From NCBI GenBank assembly GCA_950295325.1, contig OX485807.1:34504440-34568439 (forward strand): a stretch of DNA of 64,000 nt, written 5' to 3'. The translations under genes and the position numbers were made by a program. Every line of letters begins with the position of its first letter. Position 1 is the stretch's first letter. The stretch is from Polytrichum commune. Its lineage: Eukaryota > Streptophyta > Polytrichopsida > Polytrichales > Polytrichaceae. The notes beneath the pieces were generated by a model. It was not told the origin of the DNA. It did no database searches and was given only the letters and a program-made list of their open reading frames with translations. Below are positions 15,300 through 42,213 of the stretch, in pieces.

Positions 15300-17407
15300 T
15301 TAACACCATGACATGTAAGCTTGTCTTCCAACTTGGCTACTACATCTTACTATTCCTTGAGGACTTCTGCATTGAAGTTGCTCTCTAGCTTTGAAGAATC
15401 CGAGCCATTTTATGATATAGACTTTCTTGGGGCAAGAACGAGATCCTCTATCTTCATATGAAAGCATGCATTCTACTTCATATGATACATCCTCCTCAAA
15501 GACTAGCGGAGGGGGAGGTTGTTTACGACCAAAGAAGTGACTCGTGAAGGACATCATAAATCTTAAATGTGTTTGGCAGTTTACCAATTCCGTCTGCTCG
15601 ATTTTGAGGATAAAATGTGGTGGACATAGCCATCCTTGTCCTCATATGACCATGCAACACATTCTTCAAGATACTTGTGAATCTAGTGCCCATGTCACTT
15701 AGGGTTACTTTTGATAGACCATGAAGCGTATACACATGATCACGAAATAACCTTGTGGTTCCTTCAGCAGTAATGTATTGTGGTTGGCATAAAGTGGGTC
15801 ATTTTGAACAACTTATCCACACACACACAAAGATGGCATTATAATCATGAGTAAAATGTGTCAAGCTAGAGATAAAATCCATGTTGATCACCTCCTATCA
15901 AGGATCTTTAATGGTTCTAACAAGCTTGTTGGTTTTAAAGTAGGAGCTTTACTCCATCGGCAAATCTCACAAGATTTTATATAGCTCATGATGGACCCTT
16001 ACTCTTAGGCCACCAAAAATTTATCCGCATCCTCTTCCAAGTCTTAGCTACCCCAACATGACCACTGTACATTGCATCTTGATGTTCTTGGAGTAGGAAA
16101 AACATGATATTCAAGCCTTGGAAGGACACGTTTGGAACCACTATCACCTTATGATGCCACCAAATGTGATTCTTAAAAAACAAAATGCTTCAAAGTGTGA
16201 GGAATAAAACCAAGGATCAAGAAGACACCTTGCAATGATTGTATGATATAACTTACAATCATTGACAAACTCATGATACCCGTTACGTTGATTATCTAGC
16301 TCTCCTCGCATAGTGTTGGTCGCCACTAATTGAAAGACCATATGGCTTGAGCTACCTTGGGTGTCATCATGGCCTTATGAACACATGTGTCTAGCGGATT
16401 CTTAGTAAGGGGATCAACCATATGCATCTGTCCAGGGCAATATATCCACTTATAGACAAAATTATACTCCAAGAATTCCAACCATCGAGTTTGATGCTTT
16501 GATAGATTTTGTTGTGTCTTTACATACATGAGTGGGTTGTGATATGTCATCACAGTGTAATTAGACCCCTCTAAATAACAACACTAGGTTTGTATGGCGT
16601 GCACAATTGTTACTTACTACTACTCTCTAGTGCTATAATTCCTCTCAACAAGGAGAATTCCTTACTTCCAAAGGCAATAGGTCTTCCTCCTTGAAGTATG
16701 ATTGCTCCTGCCCTTATCCAAGAAATATCACTAACAACCATAAATGGCTCCTCTAACTTGGATAAGTTCAAAATTGACACATGTGTTAAAACAAATTTAA
16801 CATTTTCATAGGCACATTCACAATCCCCTGTCCAAATGAACTTAATCTTACTTCGTGTCAAGATGTCAAAGGTGTCAATAAAGTATAATATCAATGGATG
16901 AAGCTATGAATGTAATTGCCAAACCCCAAGAAAGACCATAATTGTTCAATTTAAAGAGGCATATGCCACTTTGTAATAGTTTCAATTTTCCTAGGATCCA
17001 CCTTAATATCATGTATGCCGACAACATGGTTTACATAGTGCAATTTGTCTTTCTCGAAATGATACTTAGCCACCTTGGCATAAAATTGATTCTCTCTTAG
17101 AACTTGGAGTACATCCTTTAAATGGTGTACATGTTCCTCTTCATTTTTTGAAAAAAAAGAAAATTATCAAGATACATCAACACAAACTTCTTGATGAACT
17201 TGGTTCATCACTCCCTAGAAAATAGTTGGGGTATTAGTAAAGTCTAAAGCTTAAGATTTGAAACTGATATTGTCGAAACGAGGGTGCATCTTTTGATATA
17301 TAAATCAAGTGACATCACCATTGATCACCATTGCCTAATACTAAAGTGTTGATGGCCTTCATTACTTTCAACTTGAAGGTATTAACAAAAGAAAATCTCA
17401 CAAAGCA
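15300..17407 (-). pseudogene. Gypsy pol remnant: RT end, RNase H, integrase, chromodomain
   Basis: Read right to left on the minus strand, several pieces are recognisable. An RT palm remnant lies near 17,200. An RT/RNase H segment at 16,610-16,894 has PFMVVSDISWIRAGAI and GRPIAFGSKEFS. The RNase H end is at 16,400-16,550. An integrase HHCC-like stretch (GHVGVAKTWKRMRINFWWP) is at 16,000-16,080, followed by an integrase core remnant at 15,520-15,735. A chromodomain (KKVYIIKWLG, then FE-KL) is at 15,300-15,490. Many stops and frameshifts show it is inactive. The chromodomain places it among chromoviruses. The RT is shortened between protease and palm. Confidence 0.85.
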
Positions 17408-17417
17408 ATGTGATGCA
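17408..17417. repeat. Left 10-bp target-site duplication of the MULE-like element
   Basis: ATGTGATGCA here is repeated at 32,146-32,155. These bases are codons of the gypsy protease active-site region, so the pre-insertion site is known exactly. Ten bases fits the 8-11 bp duplications of MULEs. Confidence 0.93.
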
Positions 17418-17545
17418 GGGGAGTGCTATCTTGTGAGCGGTGAGCAGTGAGCGGTAATTTGTGAGCGGTGAAGAAAACAAAATATTTGGTAATAGGACCT
17501 CTAATATCCTATAACCGTGGCCTAAAGAAATAATTTTTTAGGGTT
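17418..17545 (+). repeat. Left terminal inverted repeat with TGAGCGG subrepeats
   Basis: About 128 bp match the reverse complement of 30,441-30,590 through several blocks: GGGGAGTGCTATCTT, repeated TGAGCGG/TGAGCAG heptamers, GGTAATAGGACC/TATAACCGTGG, and GGGTT at the inner edge. The short subterminal repeats are plausible transposase-binding sites, as in other MULEs (inference). Confidence 0.88.
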
Positions 17546-17939
17546 CAATAATAAGAAGATTGGGGAGGACAAACAATATGAATGCTAGATTGTAAGTAGT
17601 GAGCAATGAAAAATACCAATATGTACATGACTCGGGGTTGCTAGTATGTGAGCATGCGAGTGTGAACCTGTGAGCCTTCAATTTTTTCCCGGTTATGGTT
17701 TGTAAATCCGTTGGGGGCCTATGATTGTGGAATTACATGTAAGGGTCTATAGTCCAAATGAACAACAAATGAGAATGTTGCTATAACAATTTTGTATAAA
17801 AAATGAACTAATATACATTCAACTGTTGAAATAATAATAATGTAATTGGAGACAATGTGTAAGCAAACTCATGTTGAAAATAAGTGTAGCATGTTAGAAT
17901 GTCTCACTATAATACACATCAATGTAAAATTTGAATACA

Positions 17940-19612
17940 TCATAACACCATCATGAGGGTGATATTTACGAAGTGCAAAACATAAAGAACAACAAAAGTG
18001 AATTGTAGATATAAATCGGGTAGTAGGTTTAAATTGTTGAAGTTCTTGGAAATCAAATATAAAAAATAAAAAATAGTGAGCACATGATCCATACCATCTG
18101 GAAGATAGTTGATGGACACATGCATATTAGCCACAGTAGCATCAAAGAGTTTTTCGGTCTCAATAGCCAACTACCAAATACAAAATAAATATTAAAAAAT
18201 TTGAATGATTGAAAAAATATTTTTTTTCAAAAAACATAGACAAAAAATTATCACCTGAGCCCACCAAGTAGCTTTATCAAGTCACTTAGGAAACTCTATA
18301 TCATTGAATTTTGGTTTCGGAAACTTGAGAGCCTCACGAAGAGTAGATGAATTGTTCCACCTCTCAAGCCACTTAATCTTCATAGATGTATACATTGCCA
18401 AAGTTGCTAACATCCAAAGTTTTTTTTGAATCATCTCAGGATTCTCATCGTGAGTTTCATAATGAGACTTCACCTGCTTTAGGAACATAGAAGAATGTCT
18501 AGGATCTGCAATAGAAAGTTATTTCTTTAGTTCCAAATGGGAAGTCAATCCTACCTTCTCCACAACTTTAGAAACAAATTCACCCACTGCACTTGAAGTC
18601 CAATGTGTAGAATCAGGGTATTTCTCATAAAATTTCCTTTGAGCAGTAGCAGCAACATCTCCCAACTCTTGCTACACCAAGGAAAAAACATATAAGAGTA
18701 TGATAAATCACACATAATAAAAATAAGATGTAATAAAACATATAGTTATAGAATTCAAAATAAAAAGAAAAAAAAGTAAAAGAGAACCAAGTTCTATATT
18801 TGGATTTTTATTTGGCATCAGCGGCAGTAAGATCTTCTTTGGAGACAACTTTTAAAAAATATGAAAGTGGTTGTCCAACAATGTTTTGAATGCAGCAAAG
18901 CTTATGAACAAGATTCGTACAAACATGGGATTTTTAGTTCCTCATGACAAAATAAAACAACCAATAATAAGCCACGGAAAAGAAATATACAATAAAAAAT
19001 AAACTTAAAAGAAAACCAAATGAACCGAACAAATAAAAAGAGAAGAATGAAGGAATTACCACTTCATGTAAAGTTGCCAACATAGTTGCAATATCTCCCT
19101 TGACGTCTAAAATAATACTTTCAACAGCATAATGTCAAGCATGATCATGTATATGATCTCGATTAATAATAGGCAATCATGTTTGCAAACGGTGGTTTTC
19201 ATCCTACATCATAAATATTTTGCGAGAAAAAACTTTGAGGTCCTCATCAGTTTGTCATATTTTTTCAAAGGCATCATTTGTCCGTACCCAATTTTCACTC
19301 CATGATTCAATGATATTATCGGTAACATCTATTGTTTCCCCTCATTGTTTTCCAAGGCCACGTAAAAAACCCCGTTGCCCTCCATATAACCACAAGCAAC
19401 AAAATGTGTAGCCAGGTTCATAACGTTATTTTTCAAAAAAGACCTAACAACAGGCAATGCAACCATTCGACATAGTGAAATGTTGAATTTTAATTTTGCC
19501 CTTGATTAATACCTCAACCATTCAAGACGGGAACATGTGTTGACAGTTTCTTTCTTAAAAATGCATGCAATTGCAATTCCAATTGATCTTCAGAAAGATG
19601 TATAACTTCCAT
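17940..19612 (-). pseudogene. Decayed ParB-like gene (paralogue of the ParB/methyltransferase N-terminal half), copy B
   Basis: An ATG at 19,610-19,612 opens MEVIHLSEDQ. Later fragments line up with the intact-looking gene at 24.2-30.4 kb: SLCRMVALPVV with PLCRMVPMPIV; a run ending DENHRLQTW with WDGNHRYLAW; WLERWN...ALKFPKP with WLKLWN...ALHFPKS; and KATWWAQ with KSTYWAQ. Several in-frame stops and shifts interrupt it, and the methyltransferase half is not found before the left terminal repeat. It probably belongs to outer copy B, whose transposase tail lies at 30.6-31.2 kb. Confidence 0.72.
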
Positions 19613-19619
19613 ATCTAAA

Positions 19620-20335
19620 TCACAAACATATCATCCATATGAAAGATAAAACAAAATTAAAAGAATTATATACATATGAAAGAAATCACATATGCAAACT
19701 AAAATAATATACAAAAATATTTATGAAAGTGAAAGTATACATAAGGAAAAATCACATATAAAATAGAATCTAAAATTTCAATATGGATGGCCATTAACGG
19801 CCATCTTTGTTGGACGAAAAGAAATGAAGGAAATAACTGTATACATGAAGAAATATACATATATAGGAAATAATATAAAATTTTAATAAGGGTTGAAATG
19901 AATGTAGACATGAAAAAAAATACATATATAGAAAGAAATATGAAATTTTAATAAGGGTGGAAATGAGTGTATACATGAAAAAATAAACTTATATACCAAT
20001 AAATTTGAGATGCAACCAAGGGTGGCCGTTAACAACCACACTTTTAGATGGAACATATATAAGAAATATATGTATATATGTGATTTTATTTCAAAGAAAT
20101 TATGTTGTTAAATGAAGATTGAAATCCAAGAAGGGATACCCTAAACTAGAAAATAGAAGTTCGCATCATACAAAGGATGGCCGTTGATGGCCACCCTAAA
20201 CTAGAACACAGAAGTTGGCATCATAAAAAGGGTGGCCGTTAACGGCCACACTTTTAGACGGAACATACATAAGAAATATATGTATATATGTGATTTTATT
20301 TCAAAGAAATTATGTTGTTAAATGAAGAGATAATG
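19620..20335. repeat. Repeated AT-rich block with four GTTAAC-centred palindromes
   Basis: Related palindromes lie near 19,788, 20,025, 20,176 and 20,231. The last reads GTGGCCGTTAACGGCCAC, an 18-bp perfect palindrome. A block of about 90 bp (AAGAAATATATGTATATATG...TTGTTAAATGAAGA) occurs at about 20,060-20,132 and 20,271-20,332. The transposase homology stops at the end of the second block, so this is likely the deletion or rearrangement junction between copies A and B. Confidence 0.75.
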
Positions 20336-23300
20336 CCTCCCTCTGCTGTAGTTGAAATCCAGCATCTTCAAGTGCCAAAACCTCATCTCTCGATAGATTG
20401 GTACCTATCTTCACTGGCCACGTGTTGGGTACTATAGGCCAAACCAACACATATTTCTTCTTACTGCCACTCACACAACGTTTGATGTCGTCAAGACAAA
20501 ACCAAAATTCATACTCCACATTGTTGGGAGAACGAAATTCCTTCCTGAGCCTTTTGTATGTTGGGGCAGGTGTGCCATGTTTCCCAGTCCCGACTTTCGC
20601 ATTGCACATAGTCCCTATAATGGCCTGCAGTGCGCAACATCGTTTGGCTGAGTTGGGTGGCAATCTTGCAATGTGCCACTTAGAAGCAAGACAATCAGTC
20701 TCTAACACGGATGTAGTATGAGCCACACCATGAATTGCAGAACTCAACGATTCTTCTATGCGTTGACGAGTTGCTCGAGTGTTGGGACGAGGAATGGAAT
20801 AGTTCACTTTGTCGGATCGATGAGAGTCACAATCAGCACCCGGTGGTAGGTTGAGTTTGCATTTGGTGGAACCAAAGAGTTCTGACCCTTCCAATGCACA
20901 ATCTCTAGTGTTGACGTCTTCTGCCCCTGGGTAAGACTTCATGGCATCAGCCAATATTTTTGGATCTCCACACCTGGCAGCTGCTTTGAGTTTCAAGGAG
21001 GCCGAATCAGGACCTTTACCATCAGACCCCCCTTTCAACCATGTCCGGTAATTTGCAATTTGCATGAAGGCACGGATCATGTCGTCCACTGTAGCTTCAT
21101 ATAAACAAGTCATCTTGTTGCCGGACTGTTGGAGCTATTTGTTGTGTACAGTCTCTGCAAGGTTGCATGTTGGCATTTCTGCACGCTCTTCTATTGTCAT
21201 ATCCTATGAACAACACACAAATACAAGGATAAGACAAACATAAGATAGATTATATATCTAGGTTTGGGTCGTTCGATCCAAAATGGCTGCCACGTTTGGG
21301 TCGAACGACCCAAACTGCCTACAAGGTTTGGGTCGAACGACCCAAACTGCATACAAGGTTTGGGTCGAACGACCTAAACTGCTTGTTGTTTGTTGTGTAC
21401 AGTCTCTGCAAGGTTGCATGTTGGCATTCCCGCACGCTATTTTATTGTCATATCCTATGAACAACACATAAAGACAAAGATAAGAAAAACATAAGATATA
21501 TTACATTGAGTAATGAAGTTTGATATGTACTTACAAGTAGCATATGGCCACCCCATTGTCTGTAACGAAAGTGCCAAAAATCCCAACCACTCTGAAAGGC
21601 CAAGGATGCCTTCTTCGGAGGCAGCTCCAGATGACAACCATCAAGAACGAATCACATGGTACTTGGTCTCAGCGTCGTTCATTGTTTTCGTGTCTTTGTA
21701 ATCCTTGCATATTTGTTTGTGTTGAAATTGCAAGGATGGTTTGATATACTTTTGGGTCATCTTATCCAAGCTTGCAGACCAATGGAAAAGACATGTACGC
21801 TCACGTGCAACCATGGGTAGACTTGGATCACCATCCCCGTAAATCGCCCTCACCGCATTCCAATTAGCTTGAGCACTATCAGCCATAAACCCTTTGAAGT
21901 TTACGTTTGGTACACCATTTTCTGCCATAACAGCATTCAAATCTTCCCAAAAGAGAATTTGTGCTACACCATCTTCAGATTGCATTTCACAACACGCAAT
22001 AGTCAACACTTTACAGTATCGACTGTAGTACACATGGCAAGCCATGGTCGTCCAATCCTTCAAACGTTTGACATGGTCAAACATAATCTATGAATTCTCC
22101 ATATCCCCTCCGACTTGCATCCTCTTCACAAGCTCCACACCACTACCTGGAAGGTGTACAGACATCTTCAAAACAAACACTTTGTCCTTTGACTGCCCTG
22201 GGAACCGACTACCATGGACGAATTTGAAAGCAGAGTGGTCTTTGAACGCCATAATACTATCCATAGTTCTCATTCTATTACGCAAAAAACGCTTTGATCC
22301 ACATATAAAGTTACGACAATTTGGAGACGCAAGAGTGCTGAATTTGTCCATGACGACCTCTAGGGATGAACCAACCAAGTGATGGCCTTCGACATTTGCG
22401 GGAGATTTGAGAAGGTAATCGGCCAAGAATTGTTTGTTCGCCGCCATAACTATGGCTGAATTTTTTGCTGTGGGTGTTTTCAATACTTCATTTGCAACGC
22501 ATTGGTATGTCATGTCCAATGATTCACGGCATGTACCATTGGCCACAGGGTGATCATGTACACCAAGATGAATGCAAGCCCTAGACATTCCAACGGATGT
22601 GGAGTGGATGTATATGATTCGAGCATTACACAAAGCAATGCACACAGGTGTGGAACGACATACCTTACACTCGACAATGGACTTAGTAGGGGGAACAACA
22701 CCCACAGCAAATGGGATAAAAGTTGAACCGGCCCATTCAGTGTTGTTCCAGAGGCCCCCATTGCGATTCATGTAATCACAGTAGTCATTATGACATTGGA
22801 GATGACCAACACAAGTAGAGCGCCGGAAGGACAGTCCAAAGTCATTTTGGATATTCGTGGTTTTGGTGGTGCACCAAGGGTGACCGTCGCACATCTTGTC
22901 CATGCCGTCCATTGAGCGACCATACGTATTTGGAGCTTTGAGTGCCACAGGAGGCAAGAGAAACAAAACATCACCATTAAAAGAAGATGGTAAGTACTTG
23001 ACTTCACGAACATCTATACTGTCAAAATCAATGGATGCAAGATCGGACTTTGATCTTTTTCTTGACTTTGGCAGCTTCAAGGCATCAACCATAGTCAACC
23101 CTGTAGATGAAGGTGAAGGGTGTAGTGGAGGACGTTGAGAAGGTGAGATTTGGGGAACCACCTTCTTGTACATAAGACCGCAAGGGGATTTGGCTACATG
23201 TATAGGAAGTTGGGAAGAAATAGAATGAACACTTCTAAATGGAAATGGCGATGTGTTTGAAAGATCAACAGATGCACAAATGTCATCTTCTGAATCTGAT

Positions 23301-23654
23301 AGCACAAACACACTATCATCAAGGTGCAATAGAGGGAATTTGAACTGTGGATGTACCGGATTCGTTTGTCAAAATGACAGTTGAAGCTTGCATTTGACAC
23401 TCAGAAAGTCCTATCACCCTAAATGAACCAGGTCCTAAGATCCACATAAAACCAACATCAGTTCTATTTTTTCGAACCAAAATCGTTTTATACATCTTTT
23501 CATCTACAAAGTACATCTCATGCTCTAAATACATAGTTCCTATCTGGAAGTTGAATCTCAAACTAAGTAAATTCTCTGAAACACTCACATGACCATCATC
23601 TTGGAGTGGCAAGATGAAGGGAACAAAAGATCCATGAGCTCTAATGGTAGCCAT
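20310..23654 (-). pseudogene. MULE-type transposase (copy A), nearly full but broken and lacking its SWIM end
   Basis: This is a DDE transposase of the Mutator-like group. N-terminal pieces start at 23,654 and, after a shift near 23,330, continue to 22,091. They include zinc-binding Cys/His stretches (CVGHLQCHNDYC; VECKVCRSTPVC...HLGVHDHP). The catalytic core has KDWTTMACHVYY, GFMADSAQANWNAV and CLFHW, then an intron (21,204-21,534), then NLAETVHNK supplying the final acidic residue. The C-terminal part (20,310-21,113) ends after LALEDAGFQLQQREALS. Breaks are a frameshift near 23,330, a TAG at 22,088-22,090, a shift near 21,640 and a TAG at 21,135-21,137. The SWIM zinc finger is missing; the sister copy has it at 31.0 kb. 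Confidence 0.88.
21262..21380. repeat. Palindrome array 1 (four units) in the transposase intron
   Basis: Four copies start near 21,262, 21,295, 21,327 and 21,359. The core TTTGGGTCGAACGACCCAAA has two 9-bp arms around a 2-bp centre. Spacers of about 12 bp give a 32-33 bp period. It lies inside the intron between the CLFHW and NLAETVHNK exons. The same core forms the ten-unit array at 25.98-26.29 kb. Confidence 0.95.
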
Positions 23655-24176
23655 AGAAAATCAAAACAACATATGAACAACACATCATAAAAATATGGGG
23701 TGAATGTTGCTTTTGTATAGAGTTGTGTGAGGAAATGAATGGAAATGAAAACGTGTGATACAATAATGGATGGAGATGAAAGCGTGTGATACATAACATC
23801 TAATAATATAGAAGTGGACATAGCACAATAATAGTCAGAGAATATTTACGAGCAAGATATACACAAAATGACATCAAATACTAAAAGTATTGGTAGAAAT
23901 TTAAAATATATATATGTGGACTGCCGTAGATGTAAAAAGAATTAAAAGTGGTTGGAAAAATAAATTATTGATCATTATGAATAGAACAAAGTAGGTGTCA
24001 GAAAATTTTGGCGGATATAACAAAAATAAACACATAATGACAAACGCGTCGAAATATCTCGTTCATTGAACGCCAATTACAACATGTGATCGTAATATAC
24101 GCCGGATTTTGTGAGATAGATACATTGAAAGCATAAATGATAGTACCTAATAGAAAACATATCATAGACACCAACG

Positions 24177-27100
24177 ATGGTGGACGATGTAGAGAGAACA
24201 CACGTGAGGCCGAAGAGAAGACGTAGGAAAACTTTGTATATCACTTCCGAGAAAAAGAGGTTCAGACTCAGTGTGGGGAAGAAGAATGCAAATAAGGAAG
24301 GGAAAAGAAACTTGTTGAGTACGGTAGAAGAAACTGTAAAGACACTAGATTTTGATGCGATGAAGGATGATGAAGGTGCAAAGAGCAAAGAAGATGTAGA
24401 CGATCGTATATCAGAGTCCGAATTGAAGACGGGTTCAAAGAAGACGACAAACAAAAAGGTAAGTCCGTTCAACGTTCACATAATTTGATAGTGAATAAGT
24501 TGTAAGTTAGGACGGAGAACCTTGTACGTTCACTCACATGTCATGTAGTAGCAATTTATAGAGGTTATAAATTGGAGAGAACAAACCCTATACGTTAATG
24601 CAAATGGTATATAACAGAAATTTAGGAAGGCTAGAAATCAGGAGGAAAACGCACAGGGTTTCTCCTCCCAAGTTTTTACCTCCTAAGTTGCTCTTACAAA
24701 CCCTGTCCGCTAACACACAGGGTTTATAAGAGCAATTTAGGAGGCAAAAACTTGGGAGGAGAAACCCTGTGCGTTAATGCACAGGGTTTGTAAGATCAAC
24801 TCAGAAGGCAAAAAATTGGTAGGAAAAACCCTGTGCGTTGACGCACTGGGTTCGTAAGATCAACTTAGGAGGCAAAAAGTTGGGAGGAAAAACCCTGTGC
24901 ATTAACGCACAGGGTTTGTAAGAGCAACTTAGGAGGCAAAAAGTTGGGAGGAGAAACCCTTTGCGTTAACGCACAGGGTTTGTAAGAGCAACTTAGGAAG
25001 GCCAAAGTTGCGAGGAGAAACCCTGTGCATTAACGCACAGGGTTTGTAAGCGCAACTTAGGAGGCAAAAAATTGGGAGGAGAAACCCTTTGCGTTAACGC
25101 ACAGGGTTTGTAAGAGCAACTTGGGAAGGCCAAAGTTCGGAGGAGAAACCCTGTGCGTTACCGCACAGGGTTTGTAAGAATAACTTAGGAAGGCCAAAAG
25201 TTGGGAGATAAAACGACTAGGAGAGCCTAAAAGTAAAACAAATATCTATAGTATGAATTTAAATCGATGTGCAGAGCGTAGGAGCAAAAAAACTATTCAA
25301 AACGGGGTTAGAATGCAAGAAATGAGAAATATGTCTACTCAAGTATTCATGCAGTACGTTATAGGAGCTAGAAAATGACACAAACTAGCATAATTTTTTT
25401 TTTGCCCCGAAACCCAAAATCTACGAGGTGGCCCAAAATAAGGAAATAGATAGAAGAATGAGAAAAGAAAATGATTTCAAACCAAAACAAAATATGAGAA
25501 GAATTTGTAGCTACGGAGATTTAGATAATATAGCATATTTTTGTTTTTTTTTGGACCCCATTAGCATTTTTTCGAGATTTTACAAGTTTTGGCAAATCTA
25601 CCAATTCCAGGCTATGTGCGTTAACGCACAAGGTCTATGCGCTAACACACAGGCCTTATGCGCTAACGTACAGGGTGTATGCGCTAACGCACAGTGGCCT
25701 CAAAGTTGCCAGCGCAGACCCTGTGCGTTAACGCACAGGGTCTACGCTGGCAATTTTCTAGCGGCTATGCGGGGCCACGAAGAGCCACACTAAATATGGC
25801 TGCAGGGACGATTAGTATAAATTGCCACACCCCAAAGCATTCAATCTTTTTTCTCTCATCTGTCGGACCTGAGCTCGTCGCTGCAAGCTCTCTCATCTAC
25901 AGATGCACTAGAAGGTTTGTTTGCACTTTCATGATGACTGGGTAATTACGCATAATCAGGCGTAAATTGCGGACAGTTTGGGTCGTTCGACCCAAACTGT
26001 GAGCATGGTTTGGGTCGAACGACCCAAACTGTCTGCATAGTTTGGGTCGAACGACCCAAACTGTCTGCATAGTTTGGGTTGAACGACCCAAACTGTGAGC
26101 ATGGTTTGCGTCGAACGATCCAAACCACGCGCAAAAAGTTTGGATCGTTCGACCCAAACCACGCTCACAGTTTGGATCAAGCGACCCAAACCACGCGCAA
26201 AAAGTTTGGGTCGTTCGATCCAAACTGGCTGTAGGCGGTTTGGGTCGCTCGATCGAAACCGCGTGGATAGTTTGGGTCGTTCGACCTAAACGTCGCACCC
26301 AACTTTGGTAGACCTGTAGTTGGACACACAGATCCTATGCGTTAACGCACAGGGTCTGCCCTTGTAGTTTTAGGTTGAACGGCCACCCTAATCGTACAAT
26401 ATTTAAAGGTGTAAATGGCATTGTCTAGAATAATTTTTGTCATTCTTCCTTGTGTTCATGGTATTCTGTTGTTATTGTTGTTGCTATTGCTGTTGTTTTT
26501 GGAATGTTATTGCTAATGTGTTGCTACTGGTTTTGAAATATTTATGAAATTTATTTCATTTGTTTTAGGACCAATCAATGGATTTGGAGAGAACGACTTC
26601 TATTTCTACTGATGATGATTCCACAATGCATTCAACTCAAGATCGTCCATCTCAACAAGTTCATCATTATTATGACATATCGTCAAATCTTCATAATAAG
26701 AAAAAAAAAAAAAAAATCCCTCGATGATTTTGACTCGGATGAAGATAATGATGGTGACAATAAAACTTATCAAGAAAAAGTGTGGGAGCTTACGAACAAA
26801 CGAAAGATCAATTCCACTTCCACAATTTCCTCAATCCGTGCTGGACCTAATGTTCGCTTCCGTGTACCCTTATGTCGCATGGTTCCTATGCCGATTGTGC
26901 TTCCTGCTTTGAATGGTGACATTACTAAATTGGAGGGTGATATTTTCAATGGTTATCGTGATCGTGACCGTGTGTTTTATATATCGGCCACCGATTTTAA
27001 GGGAAACTTTCAATTCGTGGATGATGAGGTTCGCGCATTTTGGAGCCCAAATTGGGCTCAAGCCAATGCCATGTTTGAATCTCAATTGGATACAGATTTG

Positions 27101-30100
27101 TCATTGACGTCATACAAGAACAAGATGTTTTTTATATGGGATGGAAATCACAGATATCTTGCTTGGAGAAATTATATTGACCGCGTATATACCGAAAATT
27201 GTGAACGTCATGTCTTTGTGGATTCTATCATTTTGGTGCCCGAGCCTGACGACAATCCAAGTTTGTTGACTGCTATGCATGACATCAACAAGTAATGTTC
27301 TTACCTATTTTTTTATACTTATTTCTAGTTTATATTTTGTTTTCCAAATTATATCATCATGAATCTAATCAATTTAATGTTTTTTTCAGGTCAACCGAGA
27401 ATTCTCACGTATCCACCAATTTGCTGCATGCTTTATATCGGATGCAAAGTATTGGCACCATGCCTTTGACTTTCTTCAGAAAACAACTGGATCCAAAAAG
27501 TTATAAACGATGTGAGGAGAAGTCCGTCAAAACTTGGTATTCTTTGACACGACCAATTTTTTTGGATTACATGTACAGTGTAAGTTCTTCTACCATTACT
27601 AATATGTGCCTTATGTTTATTCATCTTCATTTTACATTACATCTATATGTATTTATAAATATTGACTTTTGTTTGATTTTTCAGCAAGAACTTGCTGAGG
27701 CTAGCGATATTGCTCTCAACCAGTACAATGAAACTCATCCTCTTGAACGGACATCAGACGGAGTTTCAAAAGCAATGTCTATAGCTGTCAACAAAAAACG
27801 TGCAATGTTATCTTCTAGTTTTACGAAACAACTAGCGATTGCCGACATCAACCTTACCTCTGCTTTCCTTGAAGAAGTTAAGCGCCATTGGGGTTCATTT
27901 TCGGTGCCTGAAATGCTACAAGAAAAACTTCATCGTGTTGATGTCAGTAATGTGGATGCAGAAATCAAAGTTGGATGGCTCAAGCTTTGGAATGGCAATA
28001 GATTTGACAAAGATGCATTGCATTTCCCGAAATCGCCCCTCTCTACTTCTGCACTTGATGATTGGTTATCAAAGTCTACATATTGGGCACAGTTGGAAAA
28101 AAATGCTATCGAAGAGCTTCAAAGTATTCTTTCATCTCCTCTTCAGTTGCCTGCAGATGTGCCTACTCTCTCCGAGTATATCCAAACCTGGAAGTTTGCG
28201 GCTTTCAATTCAATATTCTATCGTGAATTCCAAAGCGAAAAAGTTAAAAAACACAACGGTTGGGATGAGCAACCTAATATTGATCTTGCTATGAAACGTG
28301 TATTATACAGGTACAACCTAATCTTATTATTTTTGTGATTTTTTTTATTCTATTTGACAAATTGTCATGGAATATTTGACTTACAATATTTTTGTGTGTA
28401 GGTATTTTCGATATGTTTTTATTACACATGAATGCATTATAGGGAAACCTCGTTTTTTCCCAAATTGGCGTGACACTAGTGCAGGAGATTCATGCATGTT
28501 CACTACTGAGATTTGTTTGGATTGGTCGCTCCCACATTATGAGGATTGTGGTTGGTATCTTGATTGTCCTAAAGATGCATGTCCGTCAAATGAGAAGACA
28601 ATCCGTCAGATAAATGATGCTAAAAATGTGGATCCTCGTGATACTGCAATTTTGCAAGCACAAATTGTACAGCTTAAACTTAGAGAGCCAGAACCAAAAG
28701 AGACAAAACGTCGTAAGAAGAAACATGTTCCTGAAACCAAAATACATGATCAATCGGTAATTTCACAACATGAAGAATTGCTTGTTCTTTCCAATGATTT
28801 GGATAAGAATCCATTTGGAGGCGAAAGTTCAAAATCTGGGTGGGATGTATTGAAATTTCATTACTCCAGCATCTATGACGCTATTCATCGTGCGCCAACG
28901 GATATTTTAAGAAAAGAATTATTCATACTGAAGAACTTTCTCACACTCTCGTTTGCTCGATCTACTGCTGTCAAGAACAAGTCTGAAGGGGTGGATGTAG
29001 GTCCTCCTGAGTGGATCCAATGGCGGGAATTTATTGAAAATGTAAGTATGATTATTGTTTTGGTATTTTCTCTAATATTCTTACTTTCATTTGGGTTTTA
29101 TTTTGTGTCTTATATTGTAATATGTTGTGGTATTTCAGTTCAATGACAATCGCGAATTTCATGTCATGGGAAGTTCGACTCCCTTTGCCGTTGACTTGGT
29201 TTTTCTCCAATTTTCCGACGGTCTTGACTTCAACCTCTCCAATAGACCTGCTGAAATTCCTCTTTGGAATAAATATGACAAGAACTGGATGGTTGCAACA
29301 ATGTCCTTGTGCAAGTCCATCTTGTCTGATGATGGCGTCCTCATAGTATTTTCTGCTATCCATATGCAAACCAAGAAGGTTTTGAATTCAACCTTACACA
29401 ACGGCAACATGAAAGTTCTTAGGATTTTATTTGCCTCAATTCGTACATGGTGTTCAAGGATCTAGAGTCTCCAACCTACACCGTAAGTATAACACATCAC
29501 AATTGTTTTTATTTAATTATTTTGGTGTTATTTGCATTGTATATAGTTTAAACACAATTTACATTTTTTTGTAGACTCCGGCATTTATGGCTCATGTCTT
29601 GGTAAGGGATTTTACTACCACAAAATCCACGAGACAACCAAACTCCACTTTTTTTGGCACTGGATTGAAATGCAAAAACTTGCTTTTCAATTTTGTGGAT
29701 GAAAAAAACATGTTTCTTCAAAAATCGGGAAGACCTTGGAGGGGGCCATATCAAAAATCGCCGCGTTTTTTTTCAAGATCTTATTGAATTGTTTACACCG
29801 TCGAATGGACGCGTTGTTGATTTGACATGTTCCACTGGAGCTTCTATCCTAGCAACACGCGCATGTGGCAGACATCTTCTTGCATTTGAGGGTGATAATG
29901 ACATATTTGAGCACATATTGAAACCGCTTTTGGAAAACGTTTTGAAAGAGGGGTCATCTAAGGAGAATATACAAGATCTCACAAAAGAAAATGATGACCT
30001 CTCGGATGAGGAGATGCTTGAATTTGAGTGTGAGTAAGTTTTAATACAATAAATTTTTATTCAATTCATTCGTTTCATTCAATTCATTGGTTCATTTTTA

Positions 30101-30393
30101 TTTCTTCACATTATTTACATGTTTCATCGATTTGATTTCAGGAATACGATTGGAAAGAGGACATGTCCCCGTTTTGGACACATAGACAATTCCTACGAAG
30201 TCCAAGCCGTAGCCCGCGTCTCCCATCATATGCCGAGAATGTTACAATTGCAATGTTGAATCTCGAAGATTCGGATCCAAATGAAGAATCTTGCTATAGT
30301 TCCAAAATCAATTCGCAATGCAAAGGTGCTCGAATATATATAGATGACGAGGCAAAAGATAGTTTCATGTCTAGTGCTACTACTGATGAATAA
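24177..30393 (+). CDS. ParB-like domain plus beta-class DNA methyltransferase-like protein (copy A), spliced, with frame breaks
   Basis: Eight exons fit GT/AG borders: 24,177-24,458; 26,569-27,291; 27,390-27,579; 27,685-28,310; 28,402-29,041; 29,139-29,482; 29,575-30,033; 30,142-30,393. Exon 1 encodes RPKRRRRK, a basic nuclear signal. Exon 2 has WDGNHRYLAW followed by a helical stretch and NKSTENSH, resembling the ParB/sulfiredoxin fold. Exons 3-4 form an all-alpha-like middle with a KRRKKKH patch. Exons 5-6 resemble N4C/N6A methyltransferases in permuted order: a motif IV-like strand (DLVFLQFSDG, without DPPY), then RPWRGP...FFQDLIELF and a SAM-binding-like GRVVDLTCSTGAS...GRHLLAFEGD. Breaks occur at an A16 run (26,701), near 29,430, at a T8 run (29,766) and at the last splice. 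Its function is unproven; the transcript would be divergent from the transposase. Confidence 0.78.
24641..25215. repeat. Array 2: about 63-bp repeats with a GCGTTAACGC-centred palindrome
   Basis: About nine palindromes with core TGTGCGTTAACGCACA extended by AACCC/GGGTT arms lie at roughly 63-bp spacing from 24,700 to 25,150. Spacers read GTAAGAGCAACTTAGGAGG or close variants. The first spacer (24,649-24,700) is inverted relative to the rest. Units differ by few substitutions, several of which break the palindrome in one arm only. Confidence 0.95.
25612..25760. repeat. Array 3: short GCGTTAACGC repeats and a 48-bp palindrome
   Basis: Four units of about 20 bp (TGCGTTAACGCACA-like, some GCGCTAAC) precede an almost perfect 48-bp palindrome around 25,704-25,751. 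The long palindrome has outer arms TTGCCAGCG / CGCTGGCAA and the same TGTGCGTTAACGCACA core. Another core copy lies at 26,336-26,353. Confidence 0.9.
25977..26291. repeat. Array 4: ten units of the TTTGGGTCGAACGACCCAAA palindrome
   Basis: Ten units with a 32-33 bp period continue the motif seen in the transposase intron. Spacers alternate between types (CTGTGAGCATGG, CTGTCTGCATAG, CCACGCGCAAAAAG). Many units carry one substitution in an arm. The 133-codon ORF across the array on the minus strand is a by-product of the repeat. Confidence 0.95.
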
Positions 30394-30440
30394 ATTTTTG
30401 GACTTCATGTTGTTTATCCTTCTCAACCCTCTTATTACTA

Positions 30441-30590
30441 AACCCTAAAATCATCATTTTTAAGGCCACAATTCCACGGTTATAGGATATTGGTGGCCCT
30501 ATTACCAAAATTTTCATCTTCCTCACTGCTCATAAGTTACCGCTCATCGCTCACCGCTCATTGCTCACCGCTCATAAGATAGCACTCCCC
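30441..30590 (-). repeat. Internal right-type terminal inverted repeat (end of copy A)
   Basis: Ends with GCTCATAAGATAGCACTCCCC-type sequence whose last 15 bases are the exact reverse complement of the left end GGGGAGTGCTATCTT. Inside it are TGAGCGG subrepeats on the opposite strand and the shared TATAGGATATT/CCTATTACCAAA blocks. Transposase coding sequence starts at the next base, so this end marks an insertion into a transposase gene. Confidence 0.88.
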
Positions 30591-31211
30591 CAACATTGTG
30601 TGAGTGGCAGTATGAAGAAATATGTGTTGGTTTGGCCTATAGTACCCAACATGTGGCCGGTGAAGATAGGTACCAATCTATCGAGAGAGGAGGTTATGGC
30701 ACTTGAAGATGCTGAATTTCAACTACAGCAGAGGGAGGCATTGTCCCCTTGTCGTAGGCTTTCAACAATCGCAACTCTTCCCAACCCTCGCTCGCATTTT
30801 TGTATGCCACCAAACCCGGACGTCTACCCTACATTCAGGTTTGGGAAGACAGTGCGTCGTAATCCAACAGCACCGCTGGCGGATCACAAAAACAAATGGG
30901 AAAGCACCGGACTCATGGAAGATTACTATGTGGTTGGGGTCACTGCCATTCCATATCCGGGCTTTGGAGTGATAATAAACATTGTCTCCAAATAGAATAT
31001 CACCTACCATGTCACAATTGGCGACATCCCGCATTGCACATGCCCGGATTTCACGAAAATGTCATCTCATGCATCGGGAAAAAAAGGAAAATGGGTGTAT
31101 TGTAAACATCTTTATTATGTGTTTAGATTTTTGTGCAAGGTGAATTACGAGAGTGACAAGTTCATTCATGCACCTACATATACATATAATGAGGTCATGC
31201 AACTACTATGA
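30591..31211 (+). pseudogene. MULE transposase C-terminus with SWIM zinc finger (outer copy B)
   Basis: The frame begins at CVSGSMKKYVLVWPIVPN, close to the same region of copy A (CVSGSKKKYVLVWPIVPN), and runs past the point where A is truncated. It includes VRRNPTAPLADHKNKWESTG, one in-frame TAG at 30,993-30,995, then CTCPDF...KGKWVYCKHLYYVF. That is a CxC...CxH SWIM finger, a usual C-terminal DNA or protein-binding module of MULE transposases. The stop is at 31,209-31,211. It lacks everything upstream because copy A sits there. Confidence 0.9.
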
Positions 31212-31935
31212 ACTTGCTAATATTGTAAAATGTGAGTAGTATTGCAAGTGTTCTATTAAGCAACATATATTTGAATGTCAATAAATGACATGTTTTGGTT
31301 TGGATTATTATAACAAGAATTAGTTATGGACTGAAAGTCTTTCAAATGATTCAATAACTTCAATTCTATTTAGACTACGACCCAACCGTGAGCGGTTTGA
31401 TTGAATCACACAGATAAATAATAACAAGTTTCTAAAAATAAAAAATAATCGACAAGATTCTACGTACATCCGCGTAGTAACTTTTTCTTGGTATCTGCCT
31501 ATAGATTATTCCTACTTTATCATTAGCTCAATTTGGGATAGCACCAGTCAATGTAACCAACCGGATTCGAACCCGGGTTGATCCAAACCTAATACCAGTC
31601 TCTTACACAACTCACATGTACAGGCGGATGTCTCAAAATCTAGTAGCTACCTACATATTGACTATTTCTAATATCTAATTTCCTTGCTTTTGTAGATTGT
31701 GGGCCTTAACTGAGCCCGTGAGTGGTTTGAGTGGTTCACAATTATGATACCTACATATACGTATAATGAGGTTATGCACCTACTTGAACTTGTTGGTGTT
31801 GTGAAATGTGAGTAGTTGTACAAGTGTGGGTTGTAACTACATGTATAAGGATGTCAATAAATGACATGTATTGGTTTGGATTATTATAATAAAAATCAGC
31901 AATGGATTGAAAGTGTTTAAAATGATCCATGGTAA
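31165..31935. repeat. Direct duplication of the transposase 3' end and downstream sequence
   Basis: About 180 bp at 31,165-31,345 (CCTACATATACATATAATGAGGT...AATGACATGTTTTGGTTTGG) recurs at 31,748-31,930 with scattered changes. A shorter direct repeat (GTGAGCGGTTTGA / GTGAGTGGTTTGA) lies at about 31,388 and 31,719. The duplication suggests unequal exchange or a further nested copy within the right arm. Confidence 0.75.
31467..31635 (-). ncRNA. tRNA-like segment, possibly a second SINE type
   Basis: On the minus strand a perfect box B GGTTCGAATCC sits in a T-arm-like CCGGGTTCGAATCCGG. Upstream a TGAGTTGTGTAAGAG stretch resembles a degraded box A. No full cloverleaf or clear flanking duplication can be drawn, so it is more likely a tRNA-derived SINE fragment than a tRNA gene. 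Confidence 0.4.
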
Positions 31936-32009
31936 TAGGATCCTTTCACGTGTGCTTCATTTAAAATACTGGCAATTTACAATTGAAAATATGTAATTAA
32001 TTTGTCAAA

Positions 32010-32145
32010 ATTCTGGTTATGTACCCTAAACCCGTATGTCTTTACTAAATTTGGAGTCATTGCTCATATGTTACTGCTCATTGCTCATGTGTTACTGCTC
32101 ACCGCTCACCGCTCACTGCTCATCGCTCATAAGATAGCTTGCCTC
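32010..32145 (-). repeat. Right terminal inverted repeat (outer copy B)
   Basis: The minus strand starts GAGGCAAGCTATCTTATGAG and continues with TGAGCGG/TGAGCAG heptamers, like the left end but with several substitutions in the first eight bases. The 10-bp duplication ATGTGATGCA follows at 32,146-32,155. Confidence 0.85.
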
Positions 32146-32155
32146 ATGTGATGCA

Positions 32156-33241: not shown

Positions 33242-34590
33242 AGAAGTGGAGTTACATGGTTGATTCTTAATTTTTCACATTGTACTTGAAACATGTACCA
33301 TATAATTCATGCACAAGTTTAATATGAGTTTTTTATTTCATTTTTATATTCTTAGATTAACGTCTTGGATTTGAACCAACCCTTCAACCAAAGGACTGAA
33401 ATTTGAGAGCCCTTCAAAATGAAACTCATACAAGGGCTTCAATTTTGAACATTGGTTAGTCATAAACTTGTCAAGTTGGATTTAGGTAGAGACTCTCATA
33501 TGGCTACCATGAATCGTAATCCTTGAACTTTAGGCTTGTGGTTGATTCACATTAAAATTTGTTGTAGTAAACTAACTTAGAGTCCTTCAAACTTATATTG
33601 GTGTGGAATCAACTTAGAAAATTAGGTTCCATGTTACATACCACTTTGGTTGTATTTTGTTGGATAATCTAGAGGGTACCTTCATAGGCATGATTCCTTC
33701 CCACGTTAGTTCACTACATGGCACCCATTTGTATGTTATGTTAATAATACAACAATGGTAAGATGTGAGGAGTAACTATGTAAATAATAGGGAGTGGGAT
33801 AAGTCTCACAATTCTTTTGTTTGGGCAAACTTAAACAATGCCATTGACATGCTTGATGGCACGATCACGACTCATTGCAAAAGGGAGGCGAACTCCAAGA
33901 AGGTTGAAGTTTATTTGTGCCAAACCTCTCAAAGTAGGTACCATAGTAGTTGCCAAAAAGTAAAAATTGTTGTCGCCATGTTGCTTTCTATGTCGACGAC
34001 CTTGTCTTTGTGCACATCTTGATGTAGATGGGTTGTAAGTTTGTACATGATAAGTTGTGGGAGCATTCAATAGCATGCCTCTCTCATTCTTTTGGGTTTT
34101 GGGTTTAGGGTTTAGGGGGGATAATCCATCATTTCAAATGCGGGGTTGTACCTAAACTATAATATGATTTATCAGAATCTCTCATCGCAACTGTAACTAA
34201 CTCAAACTAAAAAATGTCCTAAAGTGTGTGATGGTTTGAATACCGTGACTCAATCACACTATGGATCCTAAGTGCAACCTAACGAGCTTTCTTGAGTAAG
34301 TTGGGGCTCCAGATAAATGTAGATAAATGGCTGTGACTAGCAAGTGCATTTGTTAGTCACAGCTCTAGATAAATGTAGTAAATAATAAATTGGTGTGGTA
34401 TACACTAACCATATTCAAGAAACCCAGCTATTGAGAAAGAACAATGTGTTGGACATCATGTGAAAGAGTCGGTGTTCCTCTCAGAATATAGATCTGAGAT
34501 CTTGAGAGCATGCAAATAAAATCTTATACTGTAGCTCTCTAGCAGCTTGGGCAGAAAATAATTCAATTTAGAGGTGCCTAAATTTATGGG
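33242..34590. other. Non-coding spacer
   Basis: AT-rich sequence with short ORFs lacking motifs. A short run GGGTTTAGGGTTTAGGG near 34,100 resembles two or three plant telomere units but is far too short to be a telomere. No gene or transposon end is seen. Confidence 0.45.
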
Positions 34591-34599
34591 AAATTCATT

Positions 34600-35292
34600 T
34601 TGTTGAGGTACTTCTCAAGGTTAGGTGGTTCGGGAATGCTTTGCATTTGTGCAACAACAACCTCATTATTGCCAAAGAGTCGTTTGTGTGCCATATATTG
34701 CCTTTGCTGCAACTGGAAGCCAACTTCTTCGAGCGTCATAATCTCACGAGCGATAAGGTTAGTTCCTTATTAATCTGGCCAAACATCATGACAAGATTTG
34801 ACCCACTTACATCAAGTACCTTTAATACACCTTGCAATATCGTCAAGGCAAAAGTAAAAGAATTGTTCGAAATTCTTGTTCTTGCTCCGCATATGGAAAA
34901 CTCCAAAGTATGTAGAGGCAAAAAATTGACAACGGTAGCTTCTGAGTGCATTCTCCTCTAGCCCTAGCTTGCATTGCATTCTTTCTCACAAACGGCACTT
35001 GACAAATATGCCATTGATGAACATCACAGTCACTTTCTTGAACTACAGTGACATAATGAACCGGTTCTACAATATTGGATGTTTGATTCTCACCAGGTAA
35101 TGCTGGAACATCGGCTTCGAGATTGTGTTCCGCAGATGCTGAAGGAGAATCATGCAAGCTTGTCCTCAAAGTCTTTGGAGCAGCTTTTGGATGAGAGTAT
35201 TTGATCTTGTCTAAACGATGAGAATCATCATGCGTGCCTAGTTCTACATGGAGGCGGTGTCGGGTAGAGAGGGTTCCGCCTTGGGAAAGCAC
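34600..35292 (-). pseudogene. MULE transposase fragment, copy C
   Basis: Frames on the minus strand align with the C-terminal part of the transposase at 20.3-21.1 kb: GTHDDSHRLDKIKYSHP with GADCDSHRSDKVNYSIP; ESDCDVHQWHICQVP with ETDCLASKWHIARLP; and GTNLIAREIMTLEEVGFQLQQ with GTNLSRDEVLALEDAGFQLQQ. Frameshifts separate the blocks. Together with the methyltransferase relic at 36.6-37.9 kb it repeats the divergent order of copy A. Confidence 0.82.
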
Positions 35293-35299
35293 TAGGCTT

Positions 35300-41130: not shown

Positions 41131-41488
41131 GGTAAGTACCTTACTTAACTAAGGTTAGCTTAATTAGTTTAGTTAGGTTAGCTTAATTAATTAGGTTAGT
41201 TAATTAGGTTAGTTAATTAATTAGATTAATTAGATTAATTAAGTTAGTTAACTTAATTAGTTAATTAGGTTGGTTAATTAAATTAGTTAATTAAATTAGG
41301 TTAGCTTAATTTGTTTATTTTGTTTATTTTGTTTATTTATTATTTTGGTTTTTGTTTTTTGTTTTTGTTTTTGTTTTTGTTTTTTTTAATTAAAACAATT
41401 ATTTTATTTTATTTTTCACATTTTTCACATTTTTACTTTCACCTTTCATACTTGGCATTTGACTCTCACAACTTTGAGGTTCAAATTT

Positions 41489-42000
41489 GGGGGCATACTA
41501 GCTCCGATTGGAGTGAAATTTGAGCCTATCTTGTGTGAAATTTGCCAAGAAATCCAATGGTGTAATTGGATTGTTGATTGGAATTCAAAATCGTTGCTGA
41601 AATTATTAATTTCAACGCTGATTTTTGTTTTTGGGAGCAAATTAACTCCGAACGGAGTGAAATTTGAGCCTATCTTGTGTGAAATTTGCCAAGGAATCCA
41701 ATGGTGTAATTGGATTGTTGATTGGAATTCAAAATCATTGCTGAAATTATTAATTTCAACGCTGATTTTTGTTTTTGGGAGCAAATTAACTCCGAACGGA
41801 GTGAAATTTGAGCCTATCTTGTGTGAAATTTGCCAAGGAATCCAATGGTGTAATTGGATTGTTGATTGGAATTCAAAATCATTGCTGAAATTATTAATTT
41901 CAACGCTGATTTTTGTTTTTGGGAGCAAATTAACTCCGAACGGAGTGAAATTTGAGCCTAATTTGTGTGAAATCTTCCTAGGAGTCCATTGGTGCACTTA
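41489..42000. repeat. 144-bp tandem repeat, about 3.6 copies
   Basis: Units start at 41,489, 41,633, 41,777 and 41,921 (GGGAGCAAATTAACTCCGAA or variants). Units two and three are almost identical. Because 144 is divisible by 3, both strands stay open for about 180 codons; neither product resembles a known family. It lies about 210 bp upstream of the gag ATG. Confidence 0.93.
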
Positions 42001-42213
42001 GTTTGTTGATTGGAGTCCATAATCACCTTGGAAATGAGCCTTTTCAACGCTGATTTTTCATTTTAATTACCAATCTCAAACCTTTGCACAATTTTGGAAT
42101 TCTGGGGGCATAAACACTTGGCATTTGGCAAGGGATTGCCATTTAGATAGCCCGCAACAGGTGCAGATTGCCATTACCTTGTAGATAGTTGCAGGTACTC
42201 AAGTGATTATTTT

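Follow-up and report, generated by a model that had tools for sequence, protein, structure and literature searches.

What does a gene that appears to join a ParB-like block to a methyltransferase fold do inside a plant transposon? The question is raised by a stretch of 64,000 nucleotides from the moss Polytrichum commune, the whole of which is referred to here as the window. In it, an eight-exon gene runs divergently from a MULE-like transposase, and the original prediction held that such a gene could modify the DNA of the element that carries it.

A decayed composite element

Terminal repeats and a perfect 10-bp target site duplication delimit a unit at positions 17418–32145 of the window. 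The two copies of the duplication, ATGTGATGCA, can be read in the sequence at 17408–17417 and 32146–32155. MULE target site duplications are given as 8–11 bp in the available text of PMC6446971, and the perfect 10-bp duplications of the window and of three further loci lie within that range. The sequence GGGGAGTGCTATCTT occurs exactly at both 17418–17432 (plus strand) and 30576–30590 (minus strand), and long terminal inverted repeats are 84% identical between 17434–17520 and 30474–30560.

Comparison of the repeats indicates that the unit has several sources. Its left terminal repeat (17418–17582, plus strand) is of the type found on the ParB-gene side and is the end of a B-type element; the sequence from 17418 to 18071 is 95.7% identical to the B-type locus L046. 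The outer right terminal repeat (32056–32145, minus strand; AAGATAGCTTGCCTC) is of the transposase-side type, and the right end of an inner A-type element, a ParB-gene-side terminal repeat, lies internally at 30474–30590 (minus strand). A single simple element is ruled out by this element end at 30590 and by the B-type left piece; the unit is a decayed structure that combines an A-type element with remnants of B type. One of these remnants is a decayed copy of the ParB gene (18252–19553, minus strand) comprising the 5' two thirds only, without the methyltransferase exons that L046 has. Beyond the unit, the methyltransferase part of a C-type gene remnant (36666–37865, plus strand) adjoins a diverged 3' remnant of a transposase (34587–35319, minus strand). 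The composite build, the second gene copy, the C-type remnant and the palindrome arrays described below were all absent from the original prediction.

The transposase gene of the inner element (20310–23654, minus strand) lacks its 3' end. The predicted MULE-like transposase is present, though broken: its frame changes twice and it contains two in-frame stops when set against the transposase P0001, to which its main stretch is 83% identical. A transposase 3' part with a SWIM-like CxC...CxH motif lies at 30591–31211 (plus strand), where the Pfam SWIM profile scores 17.1 bits (E 0.004), below the cut-off of 19.6. A C-terminal SWIM zinc finger is common in MULEs, and not universal. Pfam Transposase_mut matched just two of 21 transposase relatives (best E 0.034) and did not match the L054 transposase protein, and a D-D-E layout like that of the MULE motif was judged by eye.

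The partner gene

The partner gene lies on the plus strand, between one terminal repeat and the head-to-head start region. Exon 1 (24177–24458) encodes a basic KRRRRK stretch, and exon 2 (26569–27291) the ParB-like block KMFFIWDGNHRYLAW. Exons 3, 4 and 5 occupy 27390–27579, 27685–28310 and 28402–29041. Exon 6 (29139–29482) covers the methyltransferase motif IV region, which reads QFSDG in this copy, exon 7 (29575–30033) holds motif X/I (VVDLTCSTGAS), and exon 8 lies at 30142–30393. The exons are 70–94% identical to those of the loci L039 and L041, which bears out the predicted eight-exon structure; exon 1 is present in 24 of 30 transposase loci, with 89–94% identity in 23 of these. Relative to L041, the reading frame of the window copy is broken in exon 2 (at a run of A), exon 6, exon 7 (at a run of T) and exon 8. 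The copies in L039 and L041 likewise carry breaks or stops, and exons 2–6 are open over their full length in L043 and L044. The protein that the gene encodes is about 1,170 residues long; its N-terminal exon is basic, a WDGNHR block follows, and the C-terminal part has an N6/N4-methyltransferase fold.

A census of the 408-Mb host genome places this arrangement well beyond one locus. The end sequence GGGGAGTGCTATCTTNTGAGC, with at most one mismatch, occurs at 327 places (154 + 173), against none for a reversed-pattern control; the element is a large, many-copy one. The proposed search for copies sharing them yielded three other loci with both ends and perfect 10-bp duplications, ATCGAAGTTA, CTGCCTACAC and CCCGGGTAGG, read by eye. 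A-type exon 4 stands head-to-head 3.3–6.9 kb upstream of 44 of the 61 scored transposases, where about 0.002 would be expected per transposase. In the part of the genome with listed ends, 48 of 63 A-type exon-4 genes have an end repeat within 6 kb on the expected side, mostly at about 2.9 kb, and 15 have none; the expected tie between gene and ends thus holds for most copies and not for all. Among 100 ends listed, 52 have no A-type exon 4 within 6 kb. Seventeen transposases have no A-type exon 4 within 12 kb. The exon lies about 15 kb from two of these, and two others carry a diverged form of the gene, B-type at C1:65022994 and D-type at C5:16873296. At least three subfamilies, A, B and D, have proteins that can be aligned end to end, C is known as a remnant only, and all four lineages share the same gene placement and orientation. 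The partner gene is a regular gene of these elements.

The expectation that every related transposase's element carries the gene was not upheld. In one element (L054/L058), examined on one side, no partner gene was found in the 6.9 kb upstream. This transposase represents a subfamily at about 50% identity, and the gene therefore belongs to a clade rather than to all relatives.

Further afield, a query the size of one exon matched 60 proteins at E ≤10, all but one of which (59) were below 1e-6. The joined A protein (residues 180–1100), set against 5.8 billion proteins, had no match at E ≤0.01 among 4501 candidates, which is probably due to introns that break up the gene in proteins predicted without splicing. 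Searches of viral contigs and a phage tblastn search gave no match.

The ParB-like half

A DG[NH]HR-type motif is typical of the ParB/sulfiredoxin superfamily. WDGNHR is present in A, B and D, within a conserved KM[FL].[IV]WDGNHR..AW, and some metagenomic exon-2 fragments have altered forms such as WDGNHI and WDDIHI. Searches of Pfam, PHROG, NCBIfam and PDB sequences gave no ParB profile match for the partner protein. The N-terminal half has one weak Pfam match, DUF1015 (E 0.054), and a fold model of exon 2 reached a pLDDT of 38.7, too low to judge the fold. The predicted ParB/sulfiredoxin-like block is thus retained as a motif and not as a profile match, and the ParB identity of this half, read from WDGNHR, is tentative.

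The N-terminal half could instead have a fold unrelated to ParB in which DGNHR arose by chance; the protein would then be a DNA-binding protein with a methyltransferase fold that belongs to a different class. The unmatched ParB profiles and the weak DUF1015 similarity would fit such a protein, but it is somewhat unlikely given the extended motif kept across A, B and D and a ParB-methyltransferase pairing already known from algal transposons, as described in the available text of PMC12477816.

Subfamily-specific palindrome arrays

Within the window, long palindromes of the kind sought are confined to the unit. A scan for arms of at least 9, a spacer of at most 2 and a G+C content of at least 0.35 found seven in the unit, none in the rest of the window and none in 20 mononucleotide shuffles. 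Array P1 (AAACCCTGTGCGTTAACGCACAGGGTTT; eight copies with a 64-bp period) occupies 24698–25207 in intron 1, with single P1 sites outside the array at 25612, 25719 and 26333. Array P2 (GTTTGGGTCGNNCGACCCAAAC; 32-bp period) lies in intron 1 at 25973–26291 and again at 21261–21382, between transposase coding blocks and presumably in an intron, while a remnant of a B-type array (GTGGCCGTTAACGGCCAC) is found at 20138–20249.

Genome-wide, the A core (P1) is perfect at 444 places and its control at none. Of the first 50 places listed, 45 are found in the 7-kb windows on the 5' side of A-type exon 4 copies, which together make up 0.33% of that stretch. Tandem palindrome arrays particular to the subfamily precede the ParB/methyltransferase exons in A, in B and, less clearly, in D. 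The palindrome sequences of the B and D arrays differ, and the D array is short, with two perfect sites found. The 64-bp unit is 90.9% conserved outside the palindrome against 96.3% within it, so recent array expansion accounts for part of the conservation. These arrays are new here and recall parS sites or the target repeats of VANC proteins; the palindromes may be docking sites of the subfamily's own partner protein.

A possible role in self-recognition

The reading favoured here, with a probability of about one half, is that the partner protein is an accessory protein for self-recognition, of an anti-silencing type, that would bind sequence-specifically and in a ParB-like manner to the palindromes of its own subfamily. 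Its ParB-like half would bind them in dimeric form, in the manner of ParB on parS, and the protein would load onto copies of its own subfamily and there counter host silencing or ready the element for transposition, much as VANC functions. A closer likeness to parS and ParB is tentative: partner protein and subfamily-specific palindrome arrays of 18–32 bp would have co-diverged, and the dimer would load, spread and shield or mark its own subfamily only, with the A form lacking the catalytic motif.

The arrays might alternatively serve the transposase, or host silencing by way of transcribed hairpins, and the partner protein might act in another process such as the replication or repair of transposition intermediates. 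P2 does also lie between transposase coding blocks, and long palindromes can form hairpins. This is nevertheless unlikely, as an array precedes the ParB/methyltransferase exons in each of A, B and D, and the subfamily split of the arrays runs parallel to the divergence of the ParB gene. Transposases, moreover, normally bind terminal repeats, and those here hold another repeat, GTGAGCG.

The methyltransferase half

The predicted methyltransferase-like fold is supported by profile comparisons. A D-type relative passes the PF01555 (N6_N4_Mtase) cut-off of 26.7 bits with 29.9 (E 6.6e-7; profile positions 163–216 of 221). Exons 6 and 7 of the A-type L041 fall under it (21.4 bits, E 2.7e-4; positions 30–218) and match PHROG 67 at 1.5e-8, and the B-type query had no match to PF01555. 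One search of PDB sequences returned six weak matches (E 0.24–0.6), five of them methyltransferases, including DpnA. The exon 7 piece matched a designed protein best (6e-5), with no stretch passing alone; of two further PDB searches, one gave no matches and the other three unrelated weak ones. Motif IV precedes motif X/I, as in the PF01555 family.

In N6/N4 amino-methyltransferases, the catalytic motif IV is (D/N/S)PP(Y/F/W). Where the family has DPPY, the moss proteins differ, with mostly QFPDG in A (QFP[DN]G or one-change variants), DYPDG in B and DIPDG in D. Each of the 25 A-type sequences listed begins the motif with glutamine, and none has DPPY; the genomic part of the scan demanded P and G in set positions and would therefore miss odd copies. 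In B and D the initial Asp is retained, and Pro2 and Tyr4 are missing. The amplified A form therefore probably lacks amino-methylation activity, and the replaced motif speaks against the suggestion that the element modifies its own DNA in the case of the window copy.

An active self-marking enzyme would bind the element and add 6mA or 4mC to the element's DNA, with GTTAAC in the palindromes as one conceivable target. In line with the original prediction, this would help the element to escape silencing or would mark transposition substrates. The fold, the Asp retained in B and D, and palindromic sites suited to symmetric methylation agree with this, and a similar role is suggested for algal ParB-methyltransferase elements in the available text of PMC12477816. 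Yet it is doubtful in view of the glutamine in the A-type sequences listed, the incomplete motif of B and D, and the fact that the amplified form, among those counted, is A. For a self-recognition protein, the A-type half would be likelier to serve in binding (of cofactor, DNA or a partner) than in methylation, while methylation by B and D would still be conceivable, with the GTTAAC core of the B palindrome as a candidate site.

Pooled pN/pS, from 4–11 copies per exon that are few and related, is 0.17 for exon 2, 0.30 for exon 3, 0.20 for exon 4, 0.29 for exon 5 and 0.31 for exon 6. Exon 7, the motif I half, has 0.70 in four ungapped copies (0.71 with frame-shifted copies included), which suggests that decay of the methyltransferase half may be under way in A. 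That the gene is an ordinary captured passenger without function, in the style of Pack-MULEs, is scarcely credible: breaks or stops in the window copy, L039 and L041 and the L054-type element without the gene would suit it, but the values for exons 2–6, the fully open copies in L043 and L044, and retention in the same place and orientation by four diverged lineages speak against it.

Comparison with known systems

Bacterial ParB-parS systems combine a DG[NH]HR-type motif with palindromic DNA sites. The moss element has both, and differs in lacking a profile match and in having its sites in tandem intron arrays of a eukaryotic transposon.

A closer precedent for the protein is the 21.5-kb Sola1-1_Ec32 of Ectocarpus, which encodes, antisense to its transposase, a 1104-residue protein with ParB and N4C/N6A methyltransferase domains (PMC12477816). 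As far as descriptions allow the proteins to be compared, both are products of similar size encoded on the opposite strand of a giant DNA transposon, and the class of proposed role is shared; in the moss, the divergent position inside the ends and the methyltransferase match are present, with ParB recognised by motif alone. The algal element differs in superfamily (Sola1) and host lineage, and the available part of its account mentions neither palindrome arrays nor loss of the catalytic motif, unlike the moss element. The view that no such MULE had been described stands in so far as a literature search found no ParB-methyltransferase accessory gene for MULEs; as transposon accessory genes, however, they are not the first of their kind, given this algal pairing.

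In Arabidopsis VANDAL MULEs, VANC anti-silencing proteins bind subfamily-specific tandem repeats in introns and other noncoding regions (PMC5735166, PMC10398659). The moss elements likewise combine a MULE, an accessory gene and fast-diverging, subfamily-specific tandem motifs in noncoding regions. The VANC21 motifs, in contrast, are 9 bp long and in one orientation, against moss palindromes of 18–32 bp, and the available text of these accounts does not describe VANC as a ParB-methyltransferase. The palindrome arrays supply each element with several well-defined predicted binding sites that vary from subfamily to subfamily, so that discrimination of self from non-self is testable by simple DNA-binding assays. 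If the favoured reading is true, it would link the ParB-methyltransferase accessory genes of algal transposons with the VANC-type, sequence-specific anti-silencing of plant MULEs.

Composition of the window copy

The MULE-like unit at 17418-32145 is flanked on both sides by a perfect 10-bp duplication, ATGTGATGCA, bearing out the terminal repeats and target duplication of the original prediction. Its left end begins GGGGAGTGCTATCTT; the identical 15-mer lies inverted at 30576-30590, and the outer right end is of a different type, AAGATAGCTTGCCTC. Both peculiarities are explained by BLASTN matches to other copies. The left part aligns with the B-type copy L046 (95.7% identity over 17418-18071, 85-86% over 18065-19893), and L046 5097-7323, which contains the methyltransferase exons, is absent from this B-type piece. 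An A-type element occupies approximately 20329-30594, with 96% identity to L048/L049 over 20329-21381 and 92.9% to L041 starting at 23616. The remainder of the unit, which begins at 30592, is an element end of the transposase side, with identities of 93.2% to L048, 93.1% to L049, and 91.7% to L051. These alignments make the unit a composite, in which an A-type element is combined with B-type remnants; nesting and then deletion would have produced it.

The predicted eight-exon gene was confirmed at 24177-30393, with GT-AG introns. In its L041 counterpart, the exons splice in a single reading frame except for two stops, both in exon 5, while L043 and L044 have full-length open exons 2-6 (the exons read). 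In the window, breaks interrupt exons 2, 6, 7, and 8 of the gene, and the transposase has two frame changes and two stops; the window copy is therefore dead.

Several other features lie outside the unit. Ty3-like reverse-transcriptase/RNase H fragments were seen by eye on the minus strand just to its left (16326-17163), and tandem arrays of 192-bp and 144-bp units occur at 12935-13381 and 41486-42025, respectively. An end-like GCCAAGTGCTATCTT at 45540-45554, with three mismatches, may mark another element or be due to chance; three matches turn up in 12 of 100 shuffles.

Distribution of the gene and its subfamilies

The host genome comprises 408 Mb in seven contigs of 42-78 Mb, a number compatible with a plant of n=7. 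The end repeat of the ParB-gene side occurs at 327 places and its reversed control at none. Immediately inside the end, seven of the first eight places listed have the 3' part of the A-type gene; the remaining place has a B-type piece. A-type exon 4 gave 151 matches, 150 of which merge into at least 137 genes. At least 44 of these 137 have a listed transposase within 12 kb; the true number may be higher, as the search scored only 61 transposases among 2784 first-look candidates. Exon 1 adjoins 24 of 30 transposase loci (23 at 89-94% identity, one at 38%).

The proposed tie between gene and ends holds in large part. In the stretch with listed ends (C1, C2, and C3 to 23.4 Mb), an end repeat lies within 6 kb on the expected side of 48 out of 63 exon-4 genes, mostly at ~2.9 kb, and is lacking there for the other 15. 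Conversely, exon 4 is present within 6 kb of 48 of the 100 listed ends and absent from that distance at 52. Of the 61 scored transposases, 44 have an A-type exon 4 in head-to-head orientation, 3.3-6.9 kb away. Relatives lacking the gene may exist: one L054-type element showed no ParB-type gene in the 6.9 kb upstream of its transposase. Upstream of that transposase there is also a tandem array of 234-bp units, at least 4.5 kb long (L058 953-5420).

The head-to-head arrangement recurs in the B-, C-, and D-type subfamilies; A, B, and D are alignable end to end. L046, adjoining transposase C1:65022994, contains a full-length B-type gene with one or more stops, and L047+L052, adjoining C5:16873296, contains a D-type gene with an open 577-aa methyltransferase exon; each gene is head-to-head with its own transposase. 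A C-type remnant in the window has a diverged transposase remnant next to it, likewise head-to-head. A protein kinase domain is additionally encoded at the D-type locus (Pfam Pkinase, 3.2e-10; L047, bases 2904-4013 of the reverse complement of L052+L047). It lies on the strand of the ParB gene, with the transposase on one side and the ParB exon on the other, and could be a separate gene or an N-terminal part of the ParB-methyltransferase gene.

Perfect 10-bp duplications were seen by eye at L041/L048 (ATCGAAGTTA), L049/L050 (CTGCCTACAC), and L051/L046 (CCCGGGTAGG). At the rearranged L039/L040 locus, two L040 end repeats are flanked by TTCAACTTGA and its reverse complement; this flank fits, by eye, unoccupied C-type sequence at ~37190 of the window, and the flank at the end of L039 does not match it. 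At two loci, 17418-18774 and L005, the end repeat and B-type exon-4-like sequence are nearly the same distance apart, ~0.8 kb. The B-type copy in the window is a derivative without methyltransferase exons, so it may have moved in that form.

The encoded protein and its constraint

A methyltransferase fold is supported by profile matches. PF01555 matches the D-type protein above cut-off (6.6e-7, profile 163-216 of 221) and exons 6+7 of the A-type L041 below it (2.7e-4, profile 30-218); PHROG 67 matches the same A-type exons at 1.5e-8, and a Pfam search with the B-type query gave no match. Motif I is present (STGAS). The first Asp of motif IV is catalytic. This motif is DYPDG in B and DIPDG in D, but A-type sequences mostly have QFPDG (variants include QFPNG and QFSDG), with Gln first in all 25 listed (14 metagenomic, 11 genomic). 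Because of this replacement, the A-type protein is probably inactive as an amino-methyltransferase.

The N-terminal half is likely ParB. Its predicted ParB/sulfiredoxin-like block is present as KM[FL].[IV]WDGNHR..AW, conserved in A, B, and D and altered in some metagenomic fragments, but Pfam, PHROG, NCBIfam, and PDB-sequence searches returned no ParB profile match. The fold model of exon 2 is of poor quality (pLDDT 38.7).

Pooled over all pairs (Nei-Gojobori), which are not independent because the copies are related, pN/pS was 0.17 and 0.30 for exons 2 and 3 (four copies each), 0.20 and 0.29 for exons 4 and 5 (six each), 0.31 for exon 6 (11), and 0.70 for exon 7 (four). Constraint looks strongest on the ParB-like part and weakest on the motif I part. 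Over similarly related pairs with dS > 0.02, median dN/dS was 0.36 for the transposase (30 copies) and 0.49 for exon 1 (22 copies).

Subfamily-specific palindrome arrays

Each alignable subfamily carries its own palindromes. A-type elements have AAACCCTGTGCGTTAACGCACAGGGTTT in intron 1 with a period of 64 bp (11 core sites with up to three mismatches in the window, 22 in L039, and nine in L041), and GTTTGGGTCGNNCGACCCAAAC, with a period of 32 bp, in the same intron and also between coding blocks of the transposase. The B-type palindrome, AATAAGGGTGGCCGTTAACGGCCACCCTTATT, forms a 105-bp array that follows exon 1 and precedes the ParB exon; two of its five sites have the full 32 bp. The D-type TTGTGCGCTGGCGCACAA occurs twice in a 104-bp array, which spans 2.6 units. 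CGTTAACG is common to the A and B palindromes.

A scan for arms of at least 9, spacers of at most 2, and G+C of at least 0.35 found seven palindromes inside the unit, none elsewhere in the window, and none in 20 mononucleotide shuffles of the unit. The A core occurs at 444 places genome-wide (reversed pattern, 0); of the first 50 places listed, 45 are located 5' of an A-type exon 4 and at most 7 kb away. Palindrome columns are 96.3% conserved versus 90.9% for the rest of the repeat unit (30 units, three copies), a modest difference. Shared location and parallel divergence suggest that the arrays and the protein are linked.

Comparison with known systems

The terms ParB and methyltransferase do not occur in the main text of a MULE review (PMC6446971), and among the open-licence PMC papers listed for MULE/Mutator-like elements and related subjects, we recognised none that describes a ParB-methyltransferase gene in a MULE. 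In algae, the Ectocarpus transposon Sola1 is reported to carry a ParB-methyltransferase gene opposite its transposase (PMC12477816). By analogy with VANDAL/VANC, the accessory protein may recognise its own subfamily through its palindromes, and this would then counter silencing or prepare transposition. PMC5735166 describes subfamily-specific sites arrayed in introns together with a DNA-binding accessory protein: VANC21 motifs form tandem repeats in the VANC21 and VANB21 introns and upstream of VANA21, and the motifs used by VANC6 differ from those of VANC21. Here too, subfamily-specific arrays in introns accompany an accessory protein that is putatively DNA-binding.
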